Below, in pieces: positions 19,328-23,550 of a stretch of 64,000 nt of DNA. The first letter of the stretch is position 1. Every line of letters starts with the position of its first letter. The notes under the pieces were generated by a model. It saw only the letters and a program-made list of their open reading frames with translations. It did no database searches and had not been told where the DNA came from. Made by a program: the position numbers and the translations under genes. This DNA is from Blastocatellia bacterium (GTDB lineage: Bacteria > Acidobacteriota > Blastocatellia > RBC074), in NCBI GenBank assembly GCA_016789725.1, contig JAEUQN010000005.1, positions 1 to 64,000 on the forward strand, in the 5' to 3' direction.

Positions 19328-19430
19328 ATCGTTCGTGGAGTGTACGGGACGGCTGCAAGCAGTGTCAATTTGCTGCGAATTGACAGGGTTACGGACGCTG
19401 CGTTATCGTGACGGTGCGCTTGAATAAGCC

Positions 19431-19438
19431 TTGTGAAA
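19431..19438 (+). promoter_or_regulatory. Possible Rex operator half-site
   Basis: TTGTGAAA, the left half of the Rex operator consensus (TTGTGAA-spacer-TTCACAA), lies about 30 bases before the rex ATG. The right half is not recognisable, so this is only a weak hint of autoregulation. Confidence 0.25.
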
Positions 19439-19467
19439 TCGAAGAGTTATCCATACACGCTCTGACA

Positions 19468-20163
19468 ATGAAAACTGAGAAAATCTCCGAATTGACAACC
19501 AGTCGGCTTTCGCTTTACTTGCGCTGCCTCGACGAGTTGGCGAGCGAGGGTGTCGAGCGGATTTCCTCAAAGGCAATGGCAGAACAATTCGCGCTGCATT
19601 CGGCACAGATTCGCAAGGACCTCGCATATTTTGGTGAATTCGGTGTGCGCGGCGTCGGATATTCGGTCAGCGATTTACGCGAGCAGTTGCGACAGATTCT
19701 GGGGTTGAATACCGACCGCAATGTGGCGATTGTCGGCGCAGGCAATTTGGGCATCGCATTGGCAACGTATGGCGGCTTCAACAGCAATGGATTTCGGATG
19801 GTGGCGATTTTTGACAGCGACCCGAACAAGATTGGAACAAAAACGCGCGATGGTTTATGTGTGCAGGATGCGCGCGAATTGTCCGATTGCATTCAGCGCG
19901 AAAAGATTGACATAGTGGTTTTTGCGGTCCCCGCAGCAGCAGCGGAAAAATTGTTAGATCAAGTGACAGCAGCAGGAATCAAGGCCGTGCTCAACTTCGC
20001 GCCCGTGCGATTGCCTCCCAAACCTGGCGTCAAAATCAAACACGTAGATTTTGCGATCTCGCTCGAAAGCCTCTCTTACTTTTTAGCGCAGCCAAATTCT
20101 TCTGGGCAAACGACAACGGGGATGGGCGCAGATTTTCGGGATTTGTTGCGGAATGGAAAATAA
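19468..20163 (+). CDS. rex: Redox-sensing transcriptional repressor Rex
   Basis: Repressor that senses the NADH/NAD+ ratio and releases DNA when NADH binds. The N-terminal winged helix (ISSKAMAEQFALHSAQIRKDLAYFGEFGVRGVGY) is followed by the Rossmann domain with NVAIVGAGNLG, IFDSDPNKIG and VFAVPAAAAEKLLD. It ends with the swapped C-terminal helix HVDFAISLESLSYFLAQ. The ATG at 19468 gives the usual N-terminus (EKISELTTSRLSLYLRCL); a TTG/GTG extension to 19408 is rejected. It is the first gene of a plus-strand run with aldolase, microcompartment shell genes and nadE, consistent with redox control of that locus. Confidence 0.95.
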   Translation: MKTEKISELTTSRLSLYLRCLDELASEGVERISSKAMAEQFALHSAQIRKDLAYFGEFGVRGVGYSVSDLREQLRQILGLNTDRNVAIVGAGNLGIALATYGGFNSNGFRMVAIFDSDPNKIGTKTRDGLCVQDARELSDCIQREKIDIVVFAVPAAAAEKLLDQVTAAGIKAVLNFAPVRLPPKPGVKIKHVDFAISLESLSYFLAQPNSSGQTTTGMGADFRDLLRNGK

Positions 20164-20201: not shown

Positions 20202-20984
20202 ATGGACGAACAGAAAATCAAAGAACAAATCGTAGACATGGCGCGGCGCTGCTATGAGCGTGGCCACATTGTCGCGGGCGACGGCAATCTCAGCGTGCGC
20301 GTCGGGCCGAATCGCTGTATCGCTACGCCCTCTGCTGTCAGCAAAGGCTGGATGAAACCCGAAATGATGGTTGTCGTAGATTTGGACGGCAATCCGCTGG
20401 AACCATCCGCTTACAAAGTCTCGTCCGAATGGCCGATGCACCGCACAATTTACAAACATCGTCCTGACATTCACGCCGTTGTGCATTGCCATCCGCCGTA
20501 TGCGACGGCCTTTGCGGTTGCGGGACTTTCGCTCGACAAAGCAATTTTATCCGAAGTCGTCTTAACGCTGGGCTGTGTGCCGTTGACCGACTACGGAACG
20601 CCTTCGACGCGCGAATTGACGGATGCGATTGAGCCGTTTTTGCAATTTCACGACGCACTGTTGATGGCAAATCACGGCGCAGTCGCGTATGCTGACACGC
20701 TCGAAAAGGCGTTCAATAAACTCGAAACGCTCGAACACACGTGCAAGATCAGCGCAATCGCGCGGAGCTTAGGGAAAGAGAACACGATCCCAGATCGGGC
20801 GATTCCCAAACTGTTCGAGATTCGAGAACGCGCAGGCGTAATGCCTGTCGAAGCACGCACGGGACAGGCCTGTGGGATGGGAGACAGGGGGATGCAGAGA
20901 CAGGGAGATGGGGAGACAATTACGTTGACGCGCGAAGAATTGGTTGAGTTGTTATCGCAAACAGCGAGATTGATGAATTCATAA
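20202..20984 (+). CDS. Class II aldolase/adducin-family enzyme, probable microcompartment cargo
   Basis: Zinc-dependent aldolase of the fuculose-1-phosphate type, expected to split a deoxy-sugar phosphate to DHAP and an aldehyde. Zinc ligands are HCHPPYATAF (two His near residues 94-96) and MANHGAVAY (His near 155). The catalytic acid Glu is in SSEWPMHRTIY. The catalytic domain ends near residue 215. It is followed by a Gly/Arg/Gln/Asp-rich linker encoded by a purine-rich repeat (20876-20917) and by an amphipathic helix (TLTREELVELLSQTARLM). That layout resembles the encapsulation peptides of microcompartment cargo. Two shell genes follow directly. The true substrate is not provable here. Confidence 0.88.
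   Translation: MDEQKIKEQIVDMARRCYERGHIVAGDGNLSVRVGPNRCIATPSAVSKGWMKPEMMVVVDLDGNPLEPSAYKVSSEWPMHRTIYKHRPDIHAVVHCHPPYATAFAVAGLSLDKAILSEVVLTLGCVPLTDYGTPSTRELTDAIEPFLQFHDALLMANHGAVAYADTLEKAFNKLETLEHTCKISAIARSLGKENTIPDRAIPKLFEIRERAGVMPVEARTGQACGMGDRGMQRQGDGETITLTREELVELLSQTARLMNS
20876..20917 (+). repeat. Purine-rich tandem repeat inside the aldolase gene
   Basis: A run of GAGACAGGG and GAGATGGG units with an approximate 16-base period, repeated twice, sits in frame and encodes the MGDRGMQRQGDGE linker. It interrupts an otherwise normal codon pattern, suggesting a repeat expansion or insertion in the coding region. Confidence 0.7.
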
Positions 20985-21026: not shown

Positions 21027-21305
21027 ATGGAAGCACTTGGAATGATTGAAACCAAAGGCTTGGTTGCCACGATTGAAGCCGCCGACGCAATGGTCAAAGC
21101 GGCGAACGTCGTGTTGGTCGGCTACGAAAAAATCGGCGCAGGCTTTGTGACAGCGATTGTGCGCGGCGATGTTGCGGCGGTGAAAGCTGCGACCGATGCC
21201 GGAGCCGCTGCCGCCCGTCGTGTCGGTGAATTGGTCGGCGTCCACGTCATCCCGCGTCCGCACGGTTCGGTGGATGAAGTGATGCCGGTGGTGGTGAAAA
21301 AATAG
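21027..21305 (+). CDS. BMC-H microcompartment shell hexamer protein
   Basis: Single-domain bacterial microcompartment shell protein of the EutM/PduA/CcmK kind (Pfam BMC). It begins [27 protein letters not shown] and has the pore-loop segment [25 protein letters not shown], then [15 protein letters not shown]. Length 92 aa is canonical. Six copies form a hexagonal tile with a central pore at the KIGAG loop. AGGAG lies upstream. It is the only hexamer gene in the window and sits between the aldolase and the pentamer gene. Confidence 0.97.
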
Positions 21306-21426
21306 TAGTCGGTAGACAGTAGACGGTAGACGGTAGAAAGAGTGCTACGTTTGCAACGTTCCTCAGAGAGAATCTGACGCAAAGTATTTTTCTACCGACT
21401 ACCGACTACCGACTACCGACTACCGA
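21303..21426. repeat. Heptad inverted repeat between BMC-H and BMC-P
   Basis: The left arm begins in the TAG stop of the BMC-H gene as GTAGTCG, GTAGACA, GTAGACG, GTAGACG, GTAG. The right arm, from 21392, is five copies of CTACCGA and ends five bases before the ATG of the BMC-P gene. The arms are separated by about 55 bases. The element replaces the expected ribosome-binding region. Confidence 0.85.
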
Positions 21427-21431
21427 TACTT

Positions 21432-21701
21432 ATGATTATCGGAAGAGTCATCGGCACAGTCGTCGCCACGCGCAAAGATGAACGGTTGCGTGGCAGCAAA
21501 TTGCTACTCGTGCGTCCGATCACGCTGAAAGGCGAAGACGAAAATAATTATCTGGTCGCGGTGGATACCGTTGGCGCAGGCGTGCGGGAACGCGTGTTGG
21601 TTGTTTCCGGCAGTAGCGCGCGCCTGGCTGAAGGAATGAAAGACCGCCCGGTGGATGCGGCGATTATCGGCATTATTGACACCGTTGAAGTCGTAGATTG
21701 A
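21432..21701 (+). CDS. BMC-P (EutN/CcmL) microcompartment shell vertex protein
   Basis: Pentamer-forming vertex protein that closes microcompartment shells. The OB-fold begins MIIGRVIGTVVATRKDERLRGSKLLLVRPI. AVDTVGAGVRERVLVVSGSSAR and the C-terminal VDAAIIGIIDTVEV complete the family pattern. Length 89 aa is normal. It lies just after a heptad hairpin, which may affect its translation, useful because few pentamers are needed per shell. With the BMC-H protein it gives the minimum set of tiles for a closed shell. Confidence 0.96.
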   Translation: MIIGRVIGTVVATRKDERLRGSKLLLVRPITLKGEDENNYLVAVDTVGAGVRERVLVVSGSSARLAEGMKDRPVDAAIIGIIDTVEVVD

Positions 21702-21756
21702 TTCATCCCCTATCCCCCGCGTATGGCTTCCATTGCCCCTTTTCTTTATCCGCTTT

Positions 21757-23490
21757 ATGACCACCATTCGTATTGCGCTCGCACAAATAAACCCCAGGAT
21801 GGGTGACTTTGCGGGCAACACGGCCAAAATCATCCACTCCATTGCGCAGGCTCGTCAGCAAGGCGCAGACATTGTTGCGCTGCCTGAACTTGCGATCACG
21901 GGTTATCCGCCCGAAGACTTGTTGCTCAAGCCGCAATTTATTTCTGCCAATCTGAAAGCGTTGGATGAAATTATTGCCGCTTCCAAAGGCATCACCGCAG
22001 TCATTGGCTTCGTAGACAAAACGACCGACATTCACAACGCCGCTGCCGTGATTCACGATGGCGAACTCAAGGGCGTATATCACAAAACGTATCTGCCGAA
22101 TTACGGTGTATTCGATGATTACCGATACTTCAAAGCGGGCGAGACTGCGCCGATTTTTCAATTGGGCGATGTGCTGTTCGGGGTCAACATTTGCGAAGAC
22201 ATCTGGTATCCCGGCGGCCCAACACAAGTCCAGGCTTTAGCGGGTGCGCAAATCATCATCAACATTTCCGCGTCGCCGTATCACTCCACCAAAGGCACCG
22301 ACCGCGAACGGATGCTCGCCACGCGCGCGGAAGACAATGCTGTCGCGCTTGCGTATGTAAATCTGGTTGGTGGGCAGGACGAATTGGTTTTTGATGGTGA
22401 CAGTTTGGTGTTCGATGAACGCGGACGAATGATGGCGCGCGGCAAAGTCTTTGAGGATGATTTGATTGTTGCGGACATCAACACTGAAAAAGTCTTCCGC
22501 GAACGATTGCACGATCCGCGTCGGCGGCAGGAACGCATTGATGTGGCGAACGAAGGAATGCGCGTTGAGAAGGTTGTGCTGACCGAAAGCTACGAAGCGA
22601 AATCGCGCGAGAAAATAATCTCAACTATCGCACCACGCGCCTCGAAAGCCGAAGAGGTGTACAAAGCACTCGTCCTCGGCACGCGCGATTACGTGCGCAA
22701 AAACGGTTTCGAGCGCGTCGTCATTGGTTTGTCGGGCGGCGTAGATTCGGCAATTGTTGCCTGCATTGCCGCAGACGCGCTCGGCGCAGACAAAGTGCGC
22801 TGCGTGTTTATGCCAACACGCTACTCCTCGAATGAAAGTGCGCGCGATGCTGAAGCGTTAGCGCGAAACCTCGGCATACATTACGACATAATCGCCATTG
22901 AAGATACATTCAAGCAATATCTGGAAATGCTTGCGCCCGTATTTGCAGGCACGGCGATGGGCGTTGCAGAGGAAAACATTCAGGCACGCATTCGCGGCAG
23001 CATCCTGATGGCGCTGTCGAATAAATTCGGCGCGCTGGTTTTGTCTACCGGCAACAAGAGCGAATCCAGCGTGGGCTATTGCACGTTGTACGGCGATATG
23101 TGCGGCGGCTTGACGGTCATCAAAGACGTGCCGAAGTTGTTGGTCTATGAACTTTGCCAATACGTCAACAGTCGTGATGGAAAGGAAGTGATTCCCGATT
23201 ACATCATCACGCGCCCGCCGTCTGCGGAGTTGCGTGACAATCAGAAAGATCAGGATTCGCTGCCGCCGTACGAAATCCTCGACGCGATTCTGGAAATGTA
23301 CGTCGAGCAGGATATGAGTATTGACGCAATGATTGTCGAAGGCTTCGACGAACAGACAGTGCGTTGGGTCGTACGCACGGTTGACATTAATGAATACAAA
23401 CGCCGTCAGGCCGCGCCCGGCATCAAGGTTACAACCCGCGCCTTTGGGCGTGATCGCCGGATGCCGATTACGAATGTCTATCGCGGGTAG
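21757..23490 (+). CDS. nadE: Glutamine-dependent NAD+ synthetase
   Basis: Last step of NAD+ synthesis: amidates deamido-NAD using ammonia from glutamine. The N-terminal nitrilase-like glutaminase domain (about 1-275) has the catalytic Glu in ALPELAITGYPPEDLL, the Lys in YHKTYLPNYGVFDD and the Cys in GVNICEDIWYPGG. The C-terminal synthetase domain has the ATP-binding LSGGVDSA and STGNKSE. 577 aa is typical of the fused form. The ATG at 21757 gives the family N-terminus (IRIALAQINPRMGDF). It follows the shell genes in the same direction. Confidence 0.97.
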   Translation: MTTIRIALAQINPRMGDFAGNTAKIIHSIAQARQQGADIVALPELAITGYPPEDLLLKPQFISANLKALDEIIAASKGITAVIGFVDKTTDIHNAAAVIHDGELKGVYHKTYLPNYGVFDDYRYFKAGETAPIFQLGDVLFGVNICEDIWYPGGPTQVQALAGAQIIINISASPYHSTKGTDRERMLATRAEDNAVALAYVNLVGGQDELVFDGDSLVFDERGRMMARGKVFEDDLIVADINTEKVFRERLHDPRRRQERIDVANEGMRVEKVVLTESYEAKSREKIISTIAPRASKAEEVYKALVLGTRDYVRKNGFERVVIGLSGGVDSAIVACIAADALGADKVRCVFMPTRYSSNESARDAEALARNLGIHYDIIAIEDTFKQYLEMLAPVFAGTAMGVAEENIQARIRGSILMALSNKFGALVLSTGNKSESSVGYCTLYGDMCGGLTVIKDVPKLLVYELCQYVNSRDGKEVIPDYIITRPPSAELRDNQKDQDSLPPYEILDAILEMYVEQDMSIDAMIVEGFDEQTVRWVVRTVDINEYKRRQAAPGIKVTTRAFGRDRRMPITNVYRG

Positions 23491-23550
23491 TCAGTAGACG
23501 GTAGACAGTAGACAGTAGGAAAGGCATTTTCTACCGACTACCGACTACCG
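23488..23550. repeat. Heptad inverted repeat between nadE and pgsA
   Basis: The TAG stop of nadE is part of the first unit. The left arm reads GTAGTCA, GTAGACG, GTAGACA, GTAGACA, GTAGGAA. The right arm is CTACCGA, CTACCGA, CTACCGG, ending eight bases before the pgsA ATG. It is the same unit as in the element between the two shell genes. Confidence 0.85.

Follow-up and report, generated by a model that had tools for sequence, protein, structure and literature searches.

The aldolase encoded at 20202-20984 bears at its C-terminus what is, with high probability, the encapsulation peptide of an ACI-type microcompartment, joined to the enzyme by a linker that predates the tandem repeat found within it, the repeat array having recoded part of that linker. 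We infer encapsulation from the sequence of the tail, its predicted fold and conservation, the gene neighbourhood, and the co-distribution of the aldolase with shell genes. The initial annotation had likened the tail to an encapsulation peptide, and the likeness is well supported: a linker and an amphipathic helix were found in every ortholog inspected, and the gene stands beside shell genes. In kind, such a tail is already known, having been published for ACI compartments (PMC8217296). What the present data add is a densely sampled alignment of natural sequences, from one acidobacterial class, for an uncharacterised encapsulation peptide.

The aldolase gene and its neighbours

The window, that is, the whole stretch of 64,000 nucleotides analysed, is contig C554 of a genome of 7.77 Mb assembled in 635 contigs. 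The open reading frame encodes a 260-residue class II aldolase of the fuculose-phosphate type (PF00596, E=2.1e-50). Its catalytic domain has the fuculose-phosphate-aldolase fold and occupies residues 1-210 (20202..20831, + strand); E76, H95, H97 and H158 are invariant columns among 62 orthologs. Among solved structures, those closest to it are fuculose-type aldolases (4c24 with E=4.5e-24), and Foldseek gave 6btd and 4c24 at a TMt of 0.89-0.92 over about 205 residues. The former, among the top structural matches, is a deoxyribose-phosphate aldolase acting in the disposal of a radical-SAM by-product, and fuculose aldolases match about equally well.

Directly downstream on the same strand lie a BMC-H shell protein gene (21027..21305, + strand; PF00936, E=1.3e-29), a BMC-P shell vertex protein gene of the EutN/CcmL type (21432..21701, + strand; PF03319, E=7.1e-33) and a gene for NAD synthase (21733..23490, + strand; PF02540, E=5.8e-72), which by synteny is the downstream neighbour in the loci of families f1 and f9. 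Upstream, a Rex-like redox-sensing repressor (19408..20163, + strand; PF02629, PF06971) is kept as neighbour in the f1 relatives, and is a possible regulator. This order of genes around the aldolase is conserved in four other genomes (G004, G005, G009 and G010). In the spacer between the BMC-H and BMC-P genes (21305-21423), two heptamer arrays face each other and form an inverted repeat of 35 nt, 89% complementary; a similar heptamer pair is located at 23487-23550.

The C-terminal tail

The translation of 20850-20984 was confirmed, and the protein ends in ...CGMGDRGMQRQGDGETIT-LTREELVELLSQTARLMNS, followed by the stop codon. Two segments can be distinguished. The first is a flexible linker at approximately residues 222-241 (20865..20924, + strand), which varies in sequence and length among orthologs and has an AlphaFold pLDDT below 50 at residues 230-237. 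The second is the putative encapsulation-peptide helix LTREELVELLSQTARLM, residues 242-258 (20925..20975, + strand). The AlphaFold prediction, made with 62 orthologs, has a confident domain, a linker with pLDDT around 50, and a terminal helix at residues 244-259 with pLDDT of 90-93, in agreement with the initial annotation, which had placed a helix after the linker. Encapsulation peptides are expected to have a terminal amphipathic helix of 15-20 residues preceded by a flexible, poorly conserved linker, and both elements are present here; the hydrophobic moment of the helix is moderate, the best 16-mer of the tail ranking ninth within the aldolase, which is not exceptional.

Linker and helix were present in 82 of the 82 orthologs inspected from the same class. 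This count includes two genomes (G138 and G135) that were missed by the helix pattern and whose printed sequences read LTRDELMELL and LTREELMELL, respectively. Averaged over columns, the entropy of the domain (residues 10-200) was 0.95 bits, that of the linker (220-239) 2.32 bits and that of the helix (240-252) 1.12 bits; thus, the helix positions are approximately as conserved as the enzyme, and the linker is not. Within the helix, L250 is invariant across the 82 orthologs, L247 is found in 81, R244 in 77 (replaced by Lys in the others) and E246 in 73, and the conserved hydrophobic positions are L242, L247 and L250. The alignment shows the residues that matter (L242, R244, E246, L247 and L250), with the linker free to change.

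Linker length, counted in residues between the conserved IRExxG motif and the helix, ranged from 23 to 75 in 78 orthologs, with a median of 35. The longest linker measured, of 75 residues, is that of G155 (L070), and its DNA contains an independent 24-bp tandem repeat encoding ASVNTNAT-like units. In many orthologs of families other than f1, the linker opens with a CxxCG(Y/F)L motif (aldolase residues 221-225), which possibly binds a metal; the linkers of family f1 retain just its second cysteine.

Comparison with other class II aldolases showed the tail to be a true extension, as the initial annotation had proposed. The alignment of solved fuculose aldolases stops at about query residue 205, leaving about 55 further residues, and the tail is absent from the genome's own five other class II aldolases and from the Pseudomonadota relative L013, whose 9.5-kb contig has no shell genes. 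A comparable tail is found in shell-linked relatives outside the class, one from Terriglobia (L010) and one from Gemmataceae (L011). A profile search of the genome with the helix detected no second cargo, the next match having E=3.45, so a targeting motif shared among cargoes lacks support here. Candidates for such cargo in other genomes were set aside: among the weak extra matches that were translated, the best non-aldolase ones (in G005, G004 and G009) fall in MTKAELVEEVARAAELTKK, the N-terminal helix of what its sequence suggests is an HU-like protein, and were judged to be chance helix similarity. A weak match to the profile occurs also in G006.

Comparison with known microcompartments

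Sutter et al. 2021 described the ACI microcompartment as occurring only in Acidobacteria and as including a class II aldolase (pfam00596) that bears an encapsulation peptide at its C-terminus, and they proposed a carbohydrate role for the compartment (PMC8217296). The locus analyzed here resembles it in its acidobacterial PF00596 aldolase, with a linker and a conserved predicted helix at the C-terminus, and in the presence in the genome of BMC-H and of three BMC-P genes (PMC8217296). The three nearest named relatives, at 78-83% identity, are all recorded as Acidobacteria. The genome differs from the described arrangement in that the BMC-P triplet is complete only at the genome level: of the three PF03319 genes, one is in the window and two are on contig C634 (L061), with no contiguous triplet. 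There are two PF00936 genes, one adjoining the aldolase and the second on contig C163 (L083). With shell genes on C554, C634 and C163, the compartment genes are scattered. For the hydroxyacid dehydrogenase of ACI loci (pfam00389/02826), 10 matches to PF02826 were found in the genome, four of them strong, and none on contig C554. For the satellite aldehyde dehydrogenase of the ACI/MIC3 clade, the candidates are the nine PF00171 genes of the genome, whose open-frame ends were read.

The aldolase of the PVM microcompartment of Planctomycetes and Verrucomicrobia belongs to the same family and is also encoded beside shell genes. The shell-linked Gemmataceae relative, a candidate for the PVM type, likewise ends in a linker followed by a helix-like tail; it differs, however, in its overall sequence (about 42% identity), in its longer, cysteine-containing linker and in the sequence of the tail. 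The encapsulation peptide of PduP also differs, since it is N-terminal, of another sequence and experimentally studied (PMC12339742), whereas the one described here is C-terminal and known from sequence.

We consider it very probable that the tail delivers the aldolase into the compartment. The disordered linker would tether the short amphipathic helix to the aldolase. By analogy with the encapsulation peptides that have been studied, the helix would bind cargo helices and, at a presumed site, the luminal face of the BMC-H shell, so that the aldolase would be brought inside. A reactive aldehyde, the product of a presumed substrate, would then be contained within the compartment.

Co-distribution with shell genes and probable shell loss

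Across the 162 genomes of the class, the aldolase was present in 144 and BMC-H in 153. Both were found in 142 genomes, the aldolase only in two, BMC-H only in 11, and neither in seven, all of which belong to genus g7. The co-occurrence gives a Fisher p of 2e-6, a value uncorrected for phylogeny. In 16 class genomes checked, the two genes lie on one contig, 59-931 bp apart.

According to the initial annotation, targeting would be refuted by aldolases that bear this tail in genomes lacking shell genes. Taken literally, such cases exist: in two genomes of genus g15 (G026 and G027, 73% and 87% complete), a tailed aldolase is present and we found no BMC-H or BMC-P. The neighbourhood of the aldolase is assembled in both genomes and contains an intact shell gene in neither; in G026, there is one short BMC-H-like fragment downstream of the aldolase. 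A third genome of the genus, G028, has an intact tailed aldolase, a BMC-H remnant, and a BMC-P that reads through an in-frame stop; in two others (G029 and G030), the shell genes beside the aldolase are intact. Given these intact and broken genus-mates, G026 and G027 are best read, from their gene content, as relics of recent shell loss in which the tailed aldolase was retained. The loci with a tailed aldolase and absent or broken shell genes are thus L062, L063 and L064 (in G026, G027 and G028). The absence of both genes throughout the seven genomes of genus g7 fits targeting.

The tails in G026 and G027, genomes in which no BMC-H or BMC-P was detected, indicate that such a tail can outlast its shell for some time at least. 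G026 has Gln and G027 has His in place of the conserved Glu of the helix. Between G028 and G029, 6 of 15 residues differ in the helix, compared with 12 of 195 in the domain. These pairwise counts, with 15 helix codons, are too few to give more than a hint that selection on the tail relaxed once the shell was lost. Genus g15 offers a setting in which to study the rate at which a targeting peptide decays after the loss of its target.

The persistence of the tail where the shell was lost could also be explained if the helix served for oligomerisation or cargo condensation only, without binding the shell itself. Encapsulation peptides have indeed been reported to form trimeric bundles and to drive condensation (PMC12339742). 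Nevertheless, we regard this explanation as improbable: work on one system reported binding of encapsulation peptides in the groove between shell proteins that tessellate (PMC11157265), and among relatives the tail tracks linkage to shell genes, being absent from the paralogs and from the relative without shell genes nearby.

A tandem array within an older linker

Within the coding DNA of the linker lies a purine-rich tandem array of 38 bp (20881..20918, + strand), in which TRF identified a 16-bp unit, about two octamers, in 2.4 copies with 86% matches and a score of 55. A score of at least 55 was reached in 1 of 1000 local dinucleotide shuffles and in 4 of 40 cases when the full 64 kb was shuffled; the repeat is real but modest. 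The initial annotation had the entire linker encoded by such a repeat; the array exists, but it spans about 12-13 of the approximately 20 linker residues. The lag periodicity of this linker was not significant on its own (p ~0.16 over all lags). The repeat is backed by a clear 8-bp periodicity in the linker DNA of G010 (p ~0.003) and G003 (p ~0.007), weaker in G009, and in G010 the corresponding site of the linker is a perfect octamer array, with GGACAGAG in tandem. The unit length is not divisible by three, so the repetition lies in the DNA and does not carry over into the peptide.

It had been suggested that expansion of this repeat created the linker and thereby freed the targeting helix. 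The array does overlap about two thirds of the linker, the octamers of G010 are perfect, and the 24-bp repeat of G155, from another family, together with its 75-residue linker, indicates that repeats can lengthen such linkers. The lengths observed within family f1 nevertheless make this origin very unlikely: linkers that include the array measure 28-29 residues and those lacking it 26-30, and the array-free relatives G001, G002, G004, G005 and G006 combine a linker of equal length with the same helix. Linkers of the outgroup families are mostly equal or longer, with the same linker-helix architecture. Since array-free relatives have linkers of equal length, the array recoded an existing linker and did not add it. 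Judging from these sequences, the octamer array is a late, lineage-specific recoding of an older linker in one subclade (this genome, genus g6 and G003), in which it would have replaced part of a segment under little sequence constraint. Least credible of all is that the tail simply belongs to the catalytic fold, for instance as a C-terminal lid, with no targeting signal: all class orthologs inspected do have the extension, but the alignment of solved fuculose aldolases stops before it, and a fixed active-site role does not suit a helix that sits beyond a hypervariable, low-confidence linker of 23-75 residues.

Dispersed arrays in related genomes

Recoding of encapsulation-peptide linkers by short dispersed tandem arrays may have occurred repeatedly, by purine octamers in f1 and by the 24-bp repeat in G155, where the linker was possibly lengthened, so that repeat turnover in the DNA would replace linker sequence with the helix kept under selection; we put this forward tentatively, as a suggestion that we think somewhat more likely to fail than to hold.

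That the linker array belongs to a large repeat family of its own genome was also considered and set aside, support being weak: the pattern GGGAGACAGGGNGATG had four matches there vs none for the reversed control, and the GGACAGAG octamer pair was not enriched (two matches vs six in the control). The same pair had 44 matches vs 5 in G010, and its variant GCACAGAG had 31 vs 13 in G004, octamer arrays being dispersed in both of these genomes. At scattered sites in this genome and its relatives (L025, L027, L138, L157 and L160), purine octamer-like arrays are followed by pyrimidine arrays, which suggests a dispersed array-hairpin element. Since a purine array faces a pyrimidine array at several of the sites examined, the array in the aldolase linker could represent one arm of an element of this kind.
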